From positions 1 through 64,000 of the forward strand of contig JALSIB010000025.1 in assembly GCA_026981855.1 (NCBI GenBank): a DNA stretch of 64,000 nucleotides. Direction: 5' to 3'. Positions within the stretch are counted from its first letter, which is position 1, and each line of letters opens with the position of its first letter. This document shows positions 40,527 to 49,136 of the stretch, piece by piece. The DNA is from Methylothermaceae bacterium. Lineage in GTDB: Bacteria > Pseudomonadota > Gammaproteobacteria > Methylococcales > Methylothermaceae. A model generated the notes under the pieces. That model searched no databases. It saw only the letters and a list, made by a program, of their open reading frames with translations, and was not told where the DNA came from. Position numbers and translations under genes: made by a program.

Positions 40527-40726
40527 AATGCGGGACCCGGTTTCCTGCCCAGTTTTTTCAACAGGATCGCCATGGGGCAGAACCCGGTAAAGGCGGACTG
40601 GAGCATATTCGCTCCGACGAAGGCGGTCAGCCACAGCCACCGTTGGTCGTGGAACACCGCCAGTGCCACGGAGAGCAAGATCATGGTTCCCGCCACGGCG
40701 AATACGATTCGATCGATGGTCATCAT
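40520..40726 (-). CDS. DUF2892 (YgaP-type) small membrane protein
   Basis: The 68-residue protein has two hydrophobic helices and the C-terminal signature LTAFVGANMLQSAFTGFCPMAILLKKLG of the inner-membrane DUF2892 domain, which in other bacteria is fused to rhodaneses (YgaP). Here it is stand-alone. GGGAGG precedes the double ATG; I took the first. It overlaps the end of the convergent secreted-protein gene. Function unknown; a link to sulfur trafficking is only by analogy. Confidence 0.85.
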   Translation of the reverse strand: MMTIDRIVFAVAGTMILLSVALAVFHDQRWLWLTAFVGANMLQSAFTGFCPMAILLKKLGRKPGPAFQ

Positions 40727-40818
40727 TCTCCCTCCCACATACCCGTTCGTTTTCTCATTCTACCTGTTATCCTGACCCATATGGTTCCAAATTCCCGGTA
40801 ATCGAAGGAGGTATGCCC

Positions 40819-41451
40819 ATGCAATCGACGCCATCCATCCTGCCCGATCTGATCGATGCGGTTGCGGCCACGATCGAATCCCATGCCGAAGAAGTCACTC
40901 AACTGGACCAGACCTTGGGAGACGGCGACCACGTCACCAATCTGCAACGGGGATTGAAAAAGCTCATGGAGCAGAAGGAAGCACTGGCCGCCGCGGAAGA
41001 TTGGAGCGCCGCCATGCAGAAGATCGCCATGAGTGTCATGTCCACGGTGGGTGGCGCGTCGGGTTCTCTCTACGGCACCCTGTTCATGGCCTTGTCCAAA
41101 GGGCTGAAGGGCAAGCCGGTGGATCTGCCGACTTTTGCGCGGGCATTCGCTGAAGCGGTCGATGCGGTCAAGAAACGCGGCCGGACGGAAGTGGGGGAAA
41201 AAACCATGGTAGACACCCTGGCTCCCGTTGCCGACGCGCTGCTCACGGCCGCCGACGCCTCCCTCCCTCTTGCCCAGGTGCTGCACCAGGTCAGGCAAGC
41301 GGCCGAGAAAGGAATGGAATCGACCCGCGACATGCTCGCCACCAAAGGACGGGCCTCTTACATGGGCGAACGCTCCAGGGGCATCATCGACGCCGGCGCC
41401 CGGACCAGCCAGCTGATGATCTGCGCCATCGCCGACAGGCTGGGCGCCTAG
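40819..41451 (+). CDS. dhaL: Dihydroxyacetone kinase, ADP-binding subunit DhaL
   Basis: DhaL carries the nucleotide used by DhaK to phosphorylate dihydroxyacetone. The 210-residue protein has LDQTLGDGDHVTN with the Mg-nucleotide-binding Asp30, Asp35 and Asp37, then GGASGSLYGTLF and RASYMGERSRGIIDAGA, all family hallmarks. The second of two ATGs was chosen because AAGGAGGT lies 7 nt upstream of it. No dhaM (phosphotransferase donor) gene is close. It faces dhaK tail-to-tail rather than following it in an operon, which is unusual. Confidence 0.94.
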   Translation: MQSTPSILPDLIDAVAATIESHAEEVTQLDQTLGDGDHVTNLQRGLKKLMEQKEALAAAEDWSAAMQKIAMSVMSTVGGASGSLYGTLFMALSKGLKGKPVDLPTFARAFAEAVDAVKKRGRTEVGEKTMVDTLAPVADALLTAADASLPLAQVLHQVRQAAEKGMESTRDMLATKGRASYMGERSRGIIDAGARTSQLMICAIADRLGA

Positions 41452-41499
41452 CCCGGATATTCCCCCGCGCAGGGGAGAAATGAGAAAGTATCCGGGCTA
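41449..41499. terminator. Bidirectional hairpin between dhaL and dhaK
   Basis: TAGCCCGGATA (41449-41459) and TATCCGGGCTA (41489-41499) are perfect 11-bp inverted repeats, with a smaller CCCC/GGGG hairpin inside. The outer arms contain the TAG stop codons of both dhaL and dhaK. It probably serves as a shared terminator or transcript-stabilising hairpin; no T-runs are present. Confidence 0.65.
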
Positions 41500-42486
41500 A
41501 CATCCCCAGCGCAGGGCCGGGGTCAGCACCGGCGCATCCCACAACCGTATCAGCTCGTCGTCCAGCAGGGTGAGGGTGAGAGAACATCCCGCCATATCTA
41601 GGGCAGTGGTGTAGTTGCCCACCAGCGAACGATGCACCGCCACGCCCAGTCTGGTCCAGAATTCGTGGGCCAGTTCATAGACCAGGTACAGCTCCATCAA
41701 AGTGGTCGATCCCAGACCATTGACATGAAGCAGCACCTTCTGTCCCGGAGATGGCCTGATTTCCTCCTCGATGGCGACACACAAGGTCTTGACGATTTCG
41801 GTGGCGCTGGCGAAATCGGCCACTTCACGGCCGTGCTCGCCATGAATCCCCACGCCGATCTCGGTCTTGTCCGGCGGCAGATCGAAAGTCGGCCCGCCCA
41901 GCGCCGGGACGGTGCATCCGCTCAATGCCACCCCGATGCTGACGGTGGCGTCGGCCACCCGGTCGCCAAGTGACTTCAAGCGACCCAGATCGGCACCCTC
42001 CTCGGCGGCAGCCCCCAGAATCTTCTCCACCACCAAAGTACCCGCCACGCCGCGGCGACCGATCTCATGCTCCCTGGGAAGGGAAATATCATCCTGTACC
42101 AGCACGGTCTCGACAGGGCAATCCAGCATTTCCGCCGCCATCTCGAAATTCATCACATCACCGGCATAGTTCTTGACGATGAACAACACCCCACCCCCCG
42201 ACTCGACCGCCTGGGCGGCGGAAAGCATTTGATCGGGAGTAGGAGAGGTGAAAACCTGGCCAGGACAGGCGGCATCGAGCATTCCACGGCCGACGAACCC
42301 CGTATGCAGCGGTTCGTGCCCCGCCCCGCCACCGGAGATCAAGGCCACCTTCCCGGCGGACGGTGGCTGCCTGCGCCTAACGAAGCGGGGCTCGGGATTC
42401 AGATCGACCAGATCCTGGTGCGCCTTGGCAAATCCCCGGAGACTCTCGTCCAACAGGGTATCGACATGATTGATGAATTTTTTCAT
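41497..42486 (-). CDS. dhaK: Dihydroxyacetone kinase, substrate-binding subunit DhaK
   Basis: DhaK binds dihydroxyacetone covalently through a His and receives the phosphate from DhaL-bound nucleotide. The 329-residue protein has MKKFINHVDTLLDESLRGF, ALISGGGAGHEPLHTGFVG, YAGDVMNFEMAAEML and GVGIHGEHGRE, with the substrate-binding His in the last motif. The ATG giving MKKFINH was chosen because GAGGG lies 8 nt upstream, even though an ATG two codons earlier exists. It follows a HAD phosphatase by 12 nt and is convergent to dhaL. Confidence 0.95.
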   Translation of the reverse strand: MKKFINHVDTLLDESLRGFAKAHQDLVDLNPEPRFVRRRQPPSAGKVALISGGGAGHEPLHTGFVGRGMLDAACPGQVFTSPTPDQMLSAAQAVESGGGVLFIVKNYAGDVMNFEMAAEMLDCPVETVLVQDDISLPREHEIGRRGVAGTLVVEKILGAAAEEGADLGRLKSLGDRVADATVSIGVALSGCTVPALGGPTFDLPPDKTEIGVGIHGEHGREVADFASATEIVKTLCVAIEEEIRPSPGQKVLLHVNGLGSTTLMELYLVYELAHEFWTRLGVAVHRSLVGNYTTALDMAGCSLTLTLLDDELIRLWDAPVLTPALRWGC

Positions 42487-42498
42487 TGGCATCGCCCT

Positions 42499-43498: not shown

Positions 43499-44890
43499 AT
43501 GGCAGAAAAAGAGAAACTCTGGGGTGGACGTTTCACCCAACCCACCGATCAATTCGTCGAGGCATTCACCGCCTCGGTCCAATTCGACAAGCGACTGGCG
43601 CCCTACGACATTCAAGGCTCCATCGCCCACGCCAGAATGCTGCGCAAGATCGGCGTTCTGACCGCCGCAGAGTGCGAAGCCATCGTCTCGGGGCTGGAGC
43701 GGATCGGGGCAGAAATCCAAAGCGGCCGCTTCCCCTGGTCGGTAGCCCTGGAAGACGTTCACATGAACATCGAGGCCAGGTTGACCGAGTTGGTTGGCGA
43801 GGCGGGGAAAAAACTCCATACCGCCCGCTCCCGCAACGATCAGGTCGCCACCGACATCCGTCTGTGGCTGCGCGACGAACTGGGCCATATCCTCAGCGAA
43901 TTGCACCGCCTTCAATCGGCTTTGCTCGACCTCGCCTGGCAAGAAGCCGAGACCATCATGCCGGGATTCACCCACCTCCAAGTTGCCCAGCCGGTGACGT
44001 TCGGCCACCATCTGCTGGCCTGGTTCGAAATGCTCCAGCGGGACCGGGAGAGATTCACCGACTGCCGGCGCAGAGTCAACGTCATGCCCCTGGGCGCCGC
44101 GGCGCTGGCGGGCACGCCCTTCCCCATCGACCGGTTCTACACCGCGCAGCTTTTGGGCTTCGACACGCCCGCCGCCAACTCCCTCGATGCCGTCTCGGAC
44201 CGGGATTTCGCCATTGAGTTCACAGGTTGCGCCGCATTGCTGATGATGCACCTGTCGCGCTTTGCGGAAGAACTGGTGCTGTGGACCTCGGCCCAGTTCG
44301 GTTTCATCGAACTTCCCGACGCCTTCTGTACCGGTTCCTCGATCATGCCACAGAAGAAGAACCCCGACGTGCCTGAACTGGTGCGAGGCAAGAGCGGGCG
44401 TGTGTTCGGCCACCTGATGGGCCTGCTCACTCTGATGAAATCCCAGCCCCTGGCCTACAACAAGGACAACCAGGAAGACAAGGAGCCGTTGTTCGACACC
44501 GTGGACACCGTCGTCAACAGCCTGAGGGCCTTCGCCGACATGATGCCCCATGTCAGCCCCGACAGGGACCGCATGCGCCAGGCAGCCAGGCAGGGCTATG
44601 CGACCGCCACCGATCTGGCCGATTATCTGGTGCGCAAAGGCGTCGCTTTCCGGGACGCCCACGAAATCGTGGGCAAGGCGGTCCAGCTGGCCCTGAGCCG
44701 CCAGTGCGACCTCGCCGACCTCCCTCTCGAGCGCTTGCAGGCGCTTTGCGGGCGCATCGATGAGGATGTGTATGAAGTCCTGACGCTGGAGGGTTCGGTG
44801 GCCGCCCGCAACCATTTTGGCGGTACGGCGCCGGAGCAGGTACGGAAAGCCGTCGAGCAGGCACGGACCCGTCTGGAGCAAGTCATTTGA
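43499..44890 (+). CDS. argH: Argininosuccinate lyase
   Basis: ArgH cleaves argininosuccinate to arginine and fumarate, the last step of arginine synthesis. The 463-residue protein begins [15 protein letters not shown] and has the fumarase-superfamily signature [12 protein letters not shown] (about 280-291) with the catalytic Ser loop, plus [13 protein letters not shown]. It is the standard length. It starts 169 nt from the divergent HAD gene. The following gene is a degenerate GGDEF protein 68 nt away, with a weak possible promoter TTGACC at 44898 but no good -10. Confidence 0.98.
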
Positions 44891-44958
44891 CCACTGATTG
44901 ACCAAGCCGAAAGTTTTTATGTCATACTTTCCTTAAACGCAGGTTCAGGGGACAAATC

Positions 44959-45741
44959 ATGATCGTAACACTGGATGATTTAAGCGTCGCTCTGGAAAAA
45001 GCCCCGTTGGGCGTGTTGGTCCTCCAGAAAGGCCGTATCGCCTGGCTGAACGAGATCCTCACGGACATCGCCAACCGCCCGAAAGGAGATCTCGTCGGGC
45101 GCCTGCTGAATGAAACCCCCCTGGCGAACCTGCCAATGGATTCCGTGGCGGAAATGACCGTCGACGACCGCGTGCTTTGGCTGGAACACCGGCAAGCCCA
45201 TAAACTGGAAGGGCGTGAGATCCATTACTTCGCCGACGTCACCGGGCGCATCGAACTCGAGAACGACATCGAGCGGCTGCAACAGCGCGTCCATTCCCTG
45301 GAAACCAAGGATCCTGTCACCGGCCTCCACAACCGCCGCGCCATCCTCCAGGAGCTCGACCGCCAGATCAGCCGCAGCCGGCGTTACCAGAACCCCCTGT
45401 CCATCATCCGCCTTGGCATCGATTGCCATACGGGCGAGGAACAACGAATCGCCATGATTCAAACCATTGGACGCTCCCTCAAGGACAAGCTCCGCTGGGC
45501 CGATGAAATCGGCATGCTCAACGACCACGCCTTCCTGCTGATTCTGCCCGAGACCTCCCTGGAGGACGCCAAGGAACTGGCCGTCAAGCTGCTCAGTGAC
45601 CGCGCCACCTTCGACTTCAGTGATGGAGAGAACAAGATCCGTTACGGTGTCGCCTCCTGGCAGAAAGGGGACGACTTGAACAAGCTGTTACGCCGGGTGG
45701 AGGAAGACCGGGAAATCAACCTCAGCGCACTTCTCTCCTGA
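44959..45741 (+). CDS. PAS-like protein with degenerate GGDEF domain
   Basis: The 260-residue protein has an N-terminal PAS-like region (VALEKAPLGVLVLQKGRIAWLNEIL, about 10-95) and a coiled linker (about 98-117). A diguanylate-cyclase-type domain follows that starts with DPVTGLHNRR (118-127). Where GGDEF should stand it reads MLNDHAFLL (about 186-194), so the catalytic residues are missing and c-di-GMP synthesis is not expected. It is cytoplasmic, with no membrane helix. An AGGGGA site precedes the ATG. It ends 3 nt before the adenylate cyclase gene, suggesting a regulatory partnership. Confidence 0.88.
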   Translation: MIVTLDDLSVALEKAPLGVLVLQKGRIAWLNEILTDIANRPKGDLVGRLLNETPLANLPMDSVAEMTVDDRVLWLEHRQAHKLEGREIHYFADVTGRIELENDIERLQQRVHSLETKDPVTGLHNRRAILQELDRQISRSRRYQNPLSIIRLGIDCHTGEEQRIAMIQTIGRSLKDKLRWADEIGMLNDHAFLLILPETSLEDAKELAVKLLSDRATFDFSDGENKIRYGVASWQKGDDLNKLLRRVEEDREINLSALLS

Positions 45742-45744
45742 CGC

Positions 45745-48480
45745 TTGCCCTCGTCCAGCCATCCTCCGATCCGCCTGGGCGCCCCGGGCGAAGAGATCCA
45801 CCGCAAGCACTTCGGCATCCTGGCCCGCCGATTTCTCCATCTGCATCGCCAGCGCCTGGAGAAACTGCACAAATGCCTGAACCGCCGTCAAAGGGACAGC
45901 CTGGACATCCTGCCGCTGCTGTTCCACCACAACCACCCCGCCTTGCCCGGATTCTGCGGCGGACTGCCTCCTTTCGGGATCTGCGACTATCGGGCATCCG
46001 CTTCCGCCCGCCAGGCCATCAAACGCATCGCTCCCGGTTTCGACTACCGCCGCCGCGGCAATCCCGAAGCCCCCATTCTGGCTCTCTTCCTCATGGGCAG
46101 CGTCGGCAGCGTCGCCTGGTCCGACAACAGCGATCTGGATCTTTGGGTTTGTCATCGCGGGGATCTGGACGCCGAAGCGCTCCAACTGCTGGAATCCAAA
46201 TGCCGTGAAATCGAATGCTGGGCGGAAGGGCAGGGACTGGAAATACACTGCTTTTTGATCGAACCCGACGCGTTCCGGGAGGGCCGGCTTTCCCCCTTGT
46301 CGGGAGAAAGCTCGGGCAGTACGCAACACATCCTGTTACTGGAGGAATTCTATCGCTCCGCCATTCATCTGGCGGGCCGCCGGTTGCTGTGGTGGCTGGT
46401 CCCGCCCGAACAAGAACACCGCTACCGCGAATATGCCGCCTACCTCCAGGACAAACGGTTCATCGATCCCTCCTCGTTCATCGATCTCGGCGGGCTGGAA
46501 AACGTCCCGCCGGCGGAATTCGTCAGCGCGGGCATGTGGCACTTGTACAAGGCGCTGAACTCCCCCTACAAGGCGCTCCTCAAGCTCCAGCTGTTGCTCA
46601 GTTACGCCGCGGAATACCCCCGCCCCGACTGGATCGCGAGCCGCATCAAGCAGGACATCTACGCAGGCCGCCTCGAGGAATCGAGGTTCGACCCCTACAT
46701 CCGCCTCTATGAAAAAGTCGAACGCTTTTTGGCCGGCAGGCAAAAACAGGATCTTCTTGGCCTGGTAAGACGAGGGTTCGCCATCAAAACCCGTCACGCC
46801 CTGCATCATCCCCACCTGCGCCCCCAGCTCGAAAGCCTGCTGCGCGGCTGGGGATGGGATACCCCCCGAAGGGGCGCATATCAGCCCTATCCCCCGTCTT
46901 TCGATGCCCTGCGGAAAGAGTGGTACACACTGATCCAGGCCCTGGAGCAGAGTTACCGGACACTGCGCCGCTTTCATTACCGCCACGCCGCCGGACAAGG
47001 CGGAAACCTGGAAGAGCTGCGCACCTTGGGGCGAAAGCTCAACGCGGTGTTGGAAAAACGGCCAGGGAAAGTGGAGATCATTCATCTGACCACTCCTGTC
47101 GACCTCAGTGAAATGAATCTGCTGATAGCAGGTGACGGCGGTCCGGGCAGCCCTGCCCGCTGGATTCTCAGGCGGGGGCAGGATCAGGAGTCGCCCGCGA
47201 TATTCCAGGCCCGCTATCTCACCGAACTGCTCGCATGGACCCACGCCAACCACTTGGCGGGGCCCGCCACCCACTGGGACGTGCTCCCGGAAACGACACC
47301 ACTCCAGCCCGCCGAGCTGCGGTTCCTGAACCAAAGGGTCAGGCGGTTCCTCCCCGCCGTATCGAATGGCGGCATGGATGCCTACCGCGCCCGGGCAAAG
47401 CTGAAAAGCGTCGCCCTGTTTCCCAATATCGCCCATTCGGGCCGTCCCAGGCGGGCCAACCATGAAATCGCCAGTGAACATTTCGACCCCCTGGCCTACG
47501 GCGCCGACCGCCAGGTTCTTGTCCGCTTCATGGAGACCCTGAGCCTCAACAGCTGGGGAGAACTTCAAGTCAGGCGCCACGAAGGTCTGGAAGGGCTTTT
47601 CGATTGCCTGTGTCTACTCTTCGACCAGGCCGGGCCGGCCCTCCATCTGGAGGCCCATTGCTTCACCTCGCGCACCATCGCCCTGCGGATCGTGGAACTG
47701 TATCAGACATTGGCCCAAGCCATGGATCGAGACGGCAACACCCGATTCGTCTTGAGCGCGGGCCATACCTTCTATCTGTTTCAACGGCAAAACGGTTCCC
47801 TCAACTGGTGGGAAGTGGGAGGGAAGAAAGCATTGCTGGAACATCTCGGGCAACCCCGGGCCAACTTCAGTCCCGTGGTTTTCGACCGCCACCTGCGGGA
47901 AGACCCCCTCCTGCCATTTCTTTACCGGCACAATCGCGCCGACACCTTGCAGCTTTTCCTCCACCCCCTGAAGGAAGGGGCGGAGGTATTCCTGCTGGAC
48001 GAACGCGGCGCCCTGTTTCATCAACGTCATCCCCATGCACCGTTTCCGTCGACCGCGCAGCGATACGTCAGCTTGCTGGGAGCGCTGGACCGCCGCGGTG
48101 GAACCAGGCAGCCTCTGGAGCTTTATCGGCTCAAACAAAACGGCCGCAAGTGGGAAAAACACCCTTTGGAATCGGAGGTGATCTCAGATCCTGTCATCGA
48201 CGTGCGCGTCTATGCCGAAAACCATCCCGGCGCAGGCGTCAGCTACACCATCGTCTGCGATGGCAAGGAATTCCGTTCGGAGGAATGGAAACAGGAGGTG
48301 TTCGCCGAGGCGGCCGCATACATCCGCCGTTTGAGACGAAGCGGAACGGCTTACCCCGTCTATGTGAGCGACATCGACGTACCGGCCGAAATCCTGGGAC
48401 TCCCGTCACCGACGATGATCCATACGGTGCCCCTGTTGCAGTACAAACGGAGGATCGAGCAACGGCTCAATCAGGCATGA
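45745..48480 (+). CDS. cyaA: Class I adenylate cyclase
   Basis: The 911-residue protein makes cAMP from ATP and matches the enterobacterial-type class I enzyme. The N-terminal catalytic half contains LMGSVGSVAWSDNSDLDLW (118-136), GSTQHILLLEEFYRSAIHLAG and the MWHLYKALNSPYKALLK signature. The C-terminal half is the regulatory region. It is a little longer than E. coli CyaA (848). The only sensible start is a TTG 3 nt after the preceding stop, with no clear ribosome site, consistent with translational coupling to the degenerate GGDEF gene. The end overlaps the convergent esterase gene by 10 nt. Confidence 0.94.
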   Translation: MPSSSHPPIRLGAPGEEIHRKHFGILARRFLHLHRQRLEKLHKCLNRRQRDSLDILPLLFHHNHPALPGFCGGLPPFGICDYRASASARQAIKRIAPGFDYRRRGNPEAPILALFLMGSVGSVAWSDNSDLDLWVCHRGDLDAEALQLLESKCREIECWAEGQGLEIHCFLIEPDAFREGRLSPLSGESSGSTQHILLLEEFYRSAIHLAGRRLLWWLVPPEQEHRYREYAAYLQDKRFIDPSSFIDLGGLENVPPAEFVSAGMWHLYKALNSPYKALLKLQLLLSYAAEYPRPDWIASRIKQDIYAGRLEESRFDPYIRLYEKVERFLAGRQKQDLLGLVRRGFAIKTRHALHHPHLRPQLESLLRGWGWDTPRRGAYQPYPPSFDALRKEWYTLIQALEQSYRTLRRFHYRHAAGQGGNLEELRTLGRKLNAVLEKRPGKVEIIHLTTPVDLSEMNLLIAGDGGPGSPARWILRRGQDQESPAIFQARYLTELLAWTHANHLAGPATHWDVLPETTPLQPAELRFLNQRVRRFLPAVSNGGMDAYRARAKLKSVALFPNIAHSGRPRRANHEIASEHFDPLAYGADRQVLVRFMETLSLNSWGELQVRRHEGLEGLFDCLCLLFDQAGPALHLEAHCFTSRTIALRIVELYQTLAQAMDRDGNTRFVLSAGHTFYLFQRQNGSLNWWEVGGKKALLEHLGQPRANFSPVVFDRHLREDPLLPFLYRHNRADTLQLFLHPLKEGAEVFLLDERGALFHQRHPHAPFPSTAQRYVSLLGALDRRGGTRQPLELYRLKQNGRKWEKHPLESEVISDPVIDVRVYAENHPGAGVSYTIVCDGKEFRSEEWKQEVFAEAAAYIRRLRRSGTAYPVYVSDIDVPAEILGLPSPTMIHTVPLLQYKRRIEQRLNQA

Positions 48481-49136
48481 CCCAGCCGCCGCATCAGCCA
48501 GCGGCGGATGATCGCGATCTCCTCCGGGCACACCGCATGGGGCATGCTGAACGCATGCCATTCGACCCGGTAACCCAATTCCAGCAACAACCGACGGCTT
48601 TCCTCAGCCACCTCGACGGGAACGATTGGATCCATGTTGCCATGCATCATCAGAATGGGAGGCGCATCGGATCCTGCGGGTGGAAACTCGTCCCCCAGGG
48701 CGACATAGGTGGACAAGGCGACGATTCCGGCGATGGCAGGTTGCCGCCGAACCCCCGCTTCCAGTGCGATCACCCCGCCCTGGGAAAAACCGGCCAAAAC
48801 GATTCTTTCGGCTCCGATCCCCTTTTCGATCTGTTCATCGATCAAGGCATCGATGAGCTTCCTCGACTGGTGAATCCCGGCCCGATCCACCCGTTGCCCC
48901 AGGTCGGGGGCGGCAATGTCGTACCAGGCCCGCATGGCCATGCCTCCATTGATGGTCACCGGTCTGACCGGAGCATGGGGAAATACGAAGCGGATGGCCC
49001 CCGGCAACTGCAACGACTCGGCGATCGGTTCGAAGTCATACCCATCGGCTCCCAGCCCATGCAACCAAATGATACAGCTGTCGGGCTGAGGTGCAGTCTC
49101 CCTGATCACGGCATCGAGCCTGACTGATGGAATCAT
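48471..49136 (-). CDS. Carboxylesterase / phospholipase family alpha/beta hydrolase
   Basis: The 221-residue protein is an alpha/beta hydrolase of the acyl-protein thioesterase/carboxylesterase group: IIWLHGLGADGYDF oxyanion region, LAGFSQGGVIALE nucleophile elbow (Ser in GFSQG), an Asp in HGNMDPIVPVE and the His in FSMPHAVCPEE. E. coli YpfH and Pseudomonas esterase II are similar. The natural substrate is unknown. The ATG follows an AGGG. It is convergent with cyaA. Confidence 0.93.
   Translation of the reverse strand: MIPSVRLDAVIRETAPQPDSCIIWLHGLGADGYDFEPIAESLQLPGAIRFVFPHAPVRPVTINGGMAMRAWYDIAAPDLGQRVDRAGIHQSRKLIDALIDEQIEKGIGAERIVLAGFSQGGVIALEAGVRRQPAIAGIVALSTYVALGDEFPPAGSDAPPILMMHGNMDPIVPVEVAEESRRLLLELGYRVEWHAFSMPHAVCPEEIAIIRRWLMRRLGHA

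Follow-up and report, generated by a model that had tools for sequence, protein, structure and literature searches.

A PAS protein with a GGDEF-like domain lacking the catalytic motif is linked to cyaA or crp in Gammaproteobacteria and may read cyclic di-GMP for the cAMP pathway

In a 64,000-nucleotide (nt) stretch of DNA from a Methylothermaceae bacterium (Gammaproteobacteria, Methylococcales; GenBank assembly GCA_026981855.1, contig JALSIB010000025.1, positions 1 to 64,000 of the forward strand; hereafter the window), cyaA, the gene for class I adenylate cyclase, is preceded by an open reading frame (ORF), here called ORF1, that encodes a PAS and GGDEF-like protein. Across the ORF1 family the active-site motif has been lost while the residues of the inhibitory site (I-site) are kept, the gene is linked to cyaA or crp, and the tandem ORF1-cyaA junctions are of the coupled type. 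From these sequence comparisons, we put at about even the chance that ORF1 is a catalytically dead receptor of cyclic di-GMP (c-di-GMP) which, with a PAS domain as an input, adjusts the cyclic AMP (cAMP) pathway. Such a protein would constitute a dedicated post-translational link between c-di-GMP and cAMP in as many as 45 families of the class sample described below, and would point to a regulator of class I adenylate cyclase for bacteria without EIIA-Glc, the phosphotransferase system (PTS) partner of E. coli CyaA. The features of the locus are as follows.

44959..45741, + strand: ORF1, PAS and GGDEF-like protein without the catalytic motif; ATG start, 260 amino acids (aa)
44980..45261, + strand: PAS region, residues ~8-101, from profile positions, with approximate boundaries
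45307..45705, + strand: GGDEF-like domain, residues 117-249 (PF00990, E 4.8e-14)
45373..45375, + strand: R139, place of the secondary I-site Arg (R in 107/113 members)
45493..45504, + strand: R179-W-A-D182, the RxxD primary I-site motif (R and D in 113/113)
45520..45534, + strand: site of the lost GGDEF, which reads NDHAF, residues 188-192 (GG[D/E]EF in 0/113)
45586..45588, + strand: K210, place of the third I-site basic residue (K/R in 110/113)
45739..45747, + strand: junction TGA-CGC-TTG (ORF1 stop, 3-nt spacer, cyaA start), in one frame
45745..48480, + strand: cyaA, class I adenylate cyclase, 911 aa, TTG start (PF12633 and PF01295)
45820..46395, + strand: CyaA N-terminal domain, Adenyl_cycl_N (PF12633 match)
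43499..44890, + strand: argH, upstream neighbor of ORF1 (TIGR00838)

The GGDEF match of ORF1 is the weakest of the 21 in the genome (Pfam), and PF00990 is matched by all 25 aligned members of the family. The initial annotation of this DNA had stated that GGDEF is replaced by MLNDHAFLL, and this is borne out: the string covers residues 186-194, with NDHAF at the GGDEF place itself. For residue counts, 119 aligned rows were filtered to under 90% identity, which left 113 (G188:C36 and G149:C6 are missing from these counts, and the tree discussed below omits G282 and G375). GG[D/E]EF occurs in none of the 113, 105 different 5-mers being found at that place, and the column of the catalytic Asp (the metal-binding first Asp, DxD loop) holds Asp in 6/113 and Gly in the window ORF1. 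The C-terminal A[LM][YF]xAK segment, which is typical of active GGDEF domains and present in many other GGDEF domains of the same genome, is found in 0/113 members. A loss of diguanylate cyclase activity in the ORF1 family, which the initial annotation had predicted for the window protein, is strongly supported by these alignments; because no member has GG[D/E]EF, the dead active site is, as far as the alignment reaches, ancestral and not a matter of local decay. That ORF1 is a decaying, functionless remnant of a diguanylate cyclase is hardly credible. The lost motif would fit such a remnant, as would the interrupted frames of two genomes of one family, f106, in which cyaA was not found (six stops in G375; in G158, which has crp, a single stop at residue 28), but ORF1 occurs in 45 families and nonsynonymous divergence (dN) lies far below synonymous divergence (dS) in four pairs (dN 0.017-0.16 vs. 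dS 0.16-1.08; dN/dS ~0.07 to 0.21), which indicates purifying selection, so that conservation largely contradicts decay. In G081 and G228, the stop inside the match lies near residue 273 and is the natural end of the protein. Between the window (44959-45738) and locus L104, synonymous differences in ORF1 are fewer than in CyaA of the same species pair and are spread over the gene; 35% of conserved-residue codons differ in ORF1 vs. 49% in CyaA.

The I-site of GGDEF domains consists of RxxD together with an Arg of the same domain and an Arg of an adjacent molecule, in PleD R359, D362, R390, and R313 (PMC7288161). In the ORF1 family, R179 and D182 (RxxD) are present in 113/113 members, exactly five residues ahead of the lost GGDEF place; R139 is kept in 107/113, Lys or Arg at position 210 in 110/113, and all four positions together in 104/113. 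R139 and K210, which we take to correspond to PleD R313 and R390, were placed by spacing, equivalence in a printed alignment being seen for RxxD only. In that alignment, HMMER sets the RWAD of ORF1 residue for residue against RKSD (R206/D209) of DgcR, and against AKSA in the DgcR chains that carry R206A/D209A. This variant was made to avoid product inhibition, and with both residues replaced the inhibition constant for c-di-GMP is nearly 50 times higher; the same paper notes that in some proteins the partner Arg lies elsewhere than at the R313 place (PMC8041772). DgcR and PleD, like ORF1, belong to the GGDEF family by sequence; unlike ORF1, in which the A[LM][YF]xAK segment is missing, these I-site feedback cyclases keep the catalytic motif. 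Retention of RxxD after loss of the active site is not the default in this genome, since among its 20 other GGDEF domains, used as a control, RxxD accompanies GG[D/E]EF in 16 and is missing from all four whose signature is altered (GGEEM, GADEF, EADTF, and GGDDF, the last a partial match).

GGDEF domains with a degenerate active site and an intact I-site act as c-di-GMP receptors in PopA of Caulobacter and SgmT of Myxococcus xanthus (PMC3509222). By its sequence ORF1 likewise combines a GGDEF domain, a degenerate active site, and an intact RxxD. Of the two functions guessed at in the initial annotation, control of cAMP synthesis by a signal sensed through PAS and a nucleotide sensor linking cAMP and c-di-GMP, the second is the better fit, given the retained I-site. 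Unlike SgmT, a histidine kinase with a GAF domain, and PopA, which is a response regulator (PMC3509222), ORF1 is a PAS and GGDEF-like protein linked to cyaA or crp; the receptor type is already known, and what sets ORF1 apart is its association with class I adenylate cyclase and CRP.

The N-terminal half of ORF1 is, by profile comparison, a PAS domain that is clearer in the relatives than in the window protein. The window ORF1 alone gives a sub-threshold match (PAS_GdpP, E 0.033), PAS_8 is the commonest PAS model among the relatives (12/25 aligned members at E 0.01 or better), and positions 8-101 of the family profile match PDB chain 2m1c (E 6.3e-6). This chain is named as a DHH subfamily 1 protein, and YybT/GdpP also has PAS followed by a degenerate GGDEF domain, to which GdpP adds a DHH phosphodiesterase part. 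The resemblance would suit an ORF1 whose degenerate GGDEF domain binds or hydrolyzes ATP or GTP and reports nucleotide supply to CyaA: YybT has a degenerate GGDEF domain, the YybT domain is described as having ATPase activity, and CC3396 is described as sensing GTP (PMC7288161). Such a role is very unlikely in view of the variable catalytic Asp column and the absence of the A[LM][YF]xAK segment from all 113 members; furthermore, unlike GdpP/YybT, the 260-aa ORF1 has no DHH match in Pfam.

Linkage of ORF1 to cyaA was followed in two samples. Among 61 genomes of the taxonomic order, ORF1 relatives (E 1e-20 or better) were found in 32 and cyaA in 40, and cyaA adjoins ORF1, with ORF1 upstream, in 27 of the 32; the best ORF1 copy is without cyaA beside it in G010, G011, G013, G017, and G018. 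Three of the relatives come from Methylothermaceae metagenome-assembled genomes (Methylococcales, Gammaproteobacteria). In G011, a second, more distant ORF1 relative (G011:C174, locus L076) lies divergent to a cyaA fragment at a contig end, and a typical ORF1 lies beside argH. A search of 369 genomes of the class with a profile of 25 members (threshold E 1e-25) matched 91 genomes; G282, which has GGEEF and is not of the ORF1 family, was set aside and dropped from all family counts, leaving the family in 90/369. Large ORFs in G105, G115, and G367 that had received the ORF1 label in a first pass were left uncounted, being probably GGDEF-EAL proteins like the member of similarity cluster k13. Both genes occur in 78 genomes of the class sample, ORF1 only in 12, cyaA only in 28, and neither in the rest; by family code, ORF1 is found in 45 families, cyaA in 57, and both in 42. 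The odds ratio for co-occurrence is 54 (Fisher p 7e-42; G282 counted and relatedness ignored). The two genes lie within 1.2 kb on one contig in 56/78 genomes, 22 in tandem and 34 divergent (in G061, among the 56, a 326-aa ORF separates them), and in the remaining 22 they are on different contigs (20) or far apart (2). They are neighbors in 29 families, and the gene order, whose conservation the initial annotation had left to be checked, extends beyond close strains.

Fourteen of the remaining 22 genomes, from nine families, share the layout ORF1(+) OsmC(-) crp(+), with the OsmC gene on the opposite strand after ORF1 in 14/14 and crp on the ORF1 strand at 511 to 830 nt from it. The family assignments of crp and OsmC come from a scan of one genome, whose crp is a CRP equivalog (336.5 bits vs. 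a cut-off of 266); crp is above the cut-off at that place in at least 10/14 genomes and was located by tblastn in the other four (58 to 66% identity). Across the class sample, crp is present in 189/369 genomes. ORF1 lies by cyaA or crp in 70/78 genomes, the other eight being G093, G135, G137, G262, G263, G328, G354, and G365. In the ORF1 tree, the 14 crp-linked rows and one further ORF1 copy form one group (support 98).

At the junction in the window, the ORF1 stop (TGA, 45739-45741) is followed by CGC and then by the TTG of cyaA at 45745 in the same frame, and no Shine-Dalgarno-like stretch was seen by eye before this TTG; both the 3-nt distance and the lack of a good ribosome site had been noted in the initial annotation. 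The cyaA that starts here is full-length and carries both class I domains (Adenylate_cycl, E 3.5e-77; Adenyl_cycl_N, E 3.1e-69; Pfam), and the best NCBIfam class I model spans residues 16-911, PRK09450 models falling below the equivalog cut-offs. E. coli cyaA also starts with UUG. A poor Shine-Dalgarno sequence is reported for cyaA of Pseudomonas putida too (PMC11139211), and is therefore not special to this locus. From the ORF1 stop to the nearest cyaA start, the spacer is -4 to +9 nt in 25/25 examined loci of the taxonomic order (the neighboring pairs of G020 and G025 are outside these 25) and exactly 3 nt in 17 of them. The genus of the window has TTG with a 3-nt spacer in 8/10 members and a spacer of 7 nt in the other two; family f6 has ATG with a 3-nt spacer in nine members, f4 a GTGA overlap in four genomes and a 9-nt spacer in one, and f7 TAATG in one genome. 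From this geometry, ORF1 and cyaA are probably translationally coupled in the tandem loci of the taxonomic order, as had been proposed from the window. Stop-codon readthrough to an ORF1-CyaA fusion was considered and rejected, because the stop (TGA, TAA, TAG) and the spacer vary and the GTGA and TAATG overlaps of other families put the genes in different frames. Scanning 44700-48700 for promoters gave no sigma-70-like site, and matches resembling terminators were at chance level.

In the mechanism that we favor, ORF1 would be a soluble regulator of the cAMP pathway, whose GGDEF-like domain would be unable to make c-di-GMP, whose kept I-site would most likely bind it, and whose PAS domain would add a second input. 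For tandem genes in this taxonomic order, coupled translation would probably give matched amounts of the two proteins, and contact of ORF1 with CyaA would be probable when both are made together. The likeliest output would be that ORF1 acts directly on CyaA and perhaps, in some lineages, on CRP, and, whichever the sign of this effect, cAMP signaling would follow the c-di-GMP level. That c-di-GMP-bound ORF1 directly controls CyaA or CRP is put forward tentatively; we regard as possible, although doubtful, a hard-wired switch, widespread among Gammaproteobacteria, by which a dead diguanylate cyclase would read c-di-GMP at its I-site and set the activity of CyaA or CRP by direct contact, so that cAMP would report c-di-GMP in bacteria without EIIA-Glc. 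CyaA ends near residue 672-675 in 4/8 examined genus relatives (L043, L044, L048, and L050, from G008, G004, G009, and G003), which have kept ORF1, and any ORF1 contact in these four must lie before that point; these proteins are ~240 residues shorter than the window CyaA, and their C-terminal part appears lost.

E. coli CyaA, whose activity is set by a partner protein, is under PTS control (PMC11139211). Unlike E. coli, neither the window genome nor any ORF1-bearing genome of the class sample has a match to EIIA-Glc (PF00358); PF00358 is found in 6/369 class genomes, none with ORF1, and is too rare to carry weight. Known cross-talk between cAMP and c-di-GMP is mostly transcriptional (PMC8125075, PMC11139211). 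In P. putida, c-di-GMP lowers cAMP with FleQ, through cyaA (PMC8125075; PMC11139211), and this control of cyaA is transcriptional, unlike that proposed for ORF1. One protein contact is described, in Shewanella putrefaciens, where the putative c-di-GMP effector BpfD directly contacts cAMP-CRP; BpfD, unlike ORF1, is an inner-membrane protein that controls a protease and an adhesin, and cAMP-CRP acts on BpfD (PMC8938473). Among the matches listed for open-access literature on GGDEF or c-di-GMP with adenylate cyclase, no report of the ORF1-cyaA pairing was found.

Several observations weigh against a c-di-GMP receptor that acts on the cAMP pathway. SgmT without its GGDEF domain was changed in localization, with no difference in phenotype or gene expression (PMC3509222). 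An AlphaFold2 model of ORF1 from a 4-row alignment is of poor quality, with a mean predicted local distance difference test (pLDDT) score of 51.9 and a predicted template modeling (pTM) score of 0.38. RxxD is common among GGDEF domains generally, and other ORF1 columns are equally fixed (R142, Y143, E198, and T199 in 113/113; W180 in 112/112 readable), so structure or a partner surface may explain part of the conservation. These columns would suit an ORF1 that acts on CyaA or CRP through PAS, with an RxxD that is structural or serves another ligand and no part for c-di-GMP, and the linkage to cyaA and crp holds without any appeal to the I-site. We think this rather unlikely, as one known ligand site is kept together while neighboring catalytic positions vary freely; in addition, Cys and His stay below 40% in every one of columns 1-110 of the PAS part, which makes the usual PAS chemistries, haem-His and flavin-Cys, unlikely.

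On the side of linkage, adjacency of ORF1 and cyaA can persist through inherited gene order. The arrangement argH-ORF1-cyaA is found repeatedly within the taxonomic order, argH lies beside or near ORF1 in several genomes without cyaA, and argH, cyaA, and genes that we presume to be of hem/alg type recur together. ORF1 could then be a c-di-GMP receptor with an unrelated output, next to cyaA by an order inherited along with argH, an explanation that we judge unlikely: the presence of ORF1 tracks that of cyaA (the odds ratio above, relatedness ignored), proximity stays while orientation changes between divergent and tandem, the one clade that moved adjoins OsmC and crp, and tandem junctions within the taxonomic order are tight. 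A regulator of the cAMP pathway must also be squared with the 28/106 cyaA genomes of the class sample that lack ORF1, and with the 20 tandem junctions examined outside the taxonomic order, which are mostly looser, so that the coupling first proposed mostly does not extend there. The ORF1-crp layout belongs to one clade and probably reflects a single relocation, because the 14 rows form one group in the tree. A second, phylum-wide draw found the ORF1 family in 1/279 genomes, the window genome only; it included genomes of the same class (at least 20 without a hit, among those listed), and since the two draws differ, neither this rate nor 90/369 is a general frequency.

The search also failed to find cyaA in 12/90 class and 4 order ORF1 genomes, many of them drafts, and CyaA is therefore probably not the sole output of ORF1. 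The ORF1 frame is intact in 10 of the 12, and crp is present in 11 of the 12 (weakly in G212, E 2.0e-69; not found in G375) and in three of the four. As most of these genomes still have crp, ORF1 goes with the cAMP pathway more than with CyaA as such. Control of cAMP synthesis by ORF1, which the initial annotation had raised as a possibility, fits the cyaA linkage, but an exclusive regulator of CyaA is not supported, given the 12 class genomes and the crp clade. In two genomes without cyaA, G161 and G376, a distant CRP-like gene lies downstream of ORF1 (35 to 37% identity, tblastn). Replacement of CyaA by a class III cyclase was considered as well: PF00211 is present in 16/17 ORF1 genomes given as cyaA-less (a set that includes G011, with its cyaA fragment) but also in 64/78 with both genes, and class III cyclases therefore do not discriminate; the window genome has no PF00211 match.

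Several further genes recur around these loci. A carboxylesterase-family gene (PF02230; 48471-49136, - strand) converges on cyaA in the window and overlaps its 3' end by 10 nt; the class loci hold 21 members of its similarity cluster, k6, frequently close to cyaA or ORF1. A small MazG-like protein (cluster k7, 19 members, PF12643 on one; for example L166:3508-3864) is often encoded just upstream of ORF1 or between ORF1 and argH. A histidine-phosphatase family gene (cluster c40, at loci L073, L093, L097, and L098; PF00300 on L073:6814-7422) adjoins cyaA in three genomes that have no ORF1; in G017 it stands ahead of ORF1. Farther upstream in the window, dihydroxyacetone kinase parts lie on opposite strands, the Dak2 domain at 40663-41451 (+) and the Dak1 domain at 41497-42492 (-), and a HAD hydrolase gene adjoins these Dak1/Dak2 genes (40663-42492).

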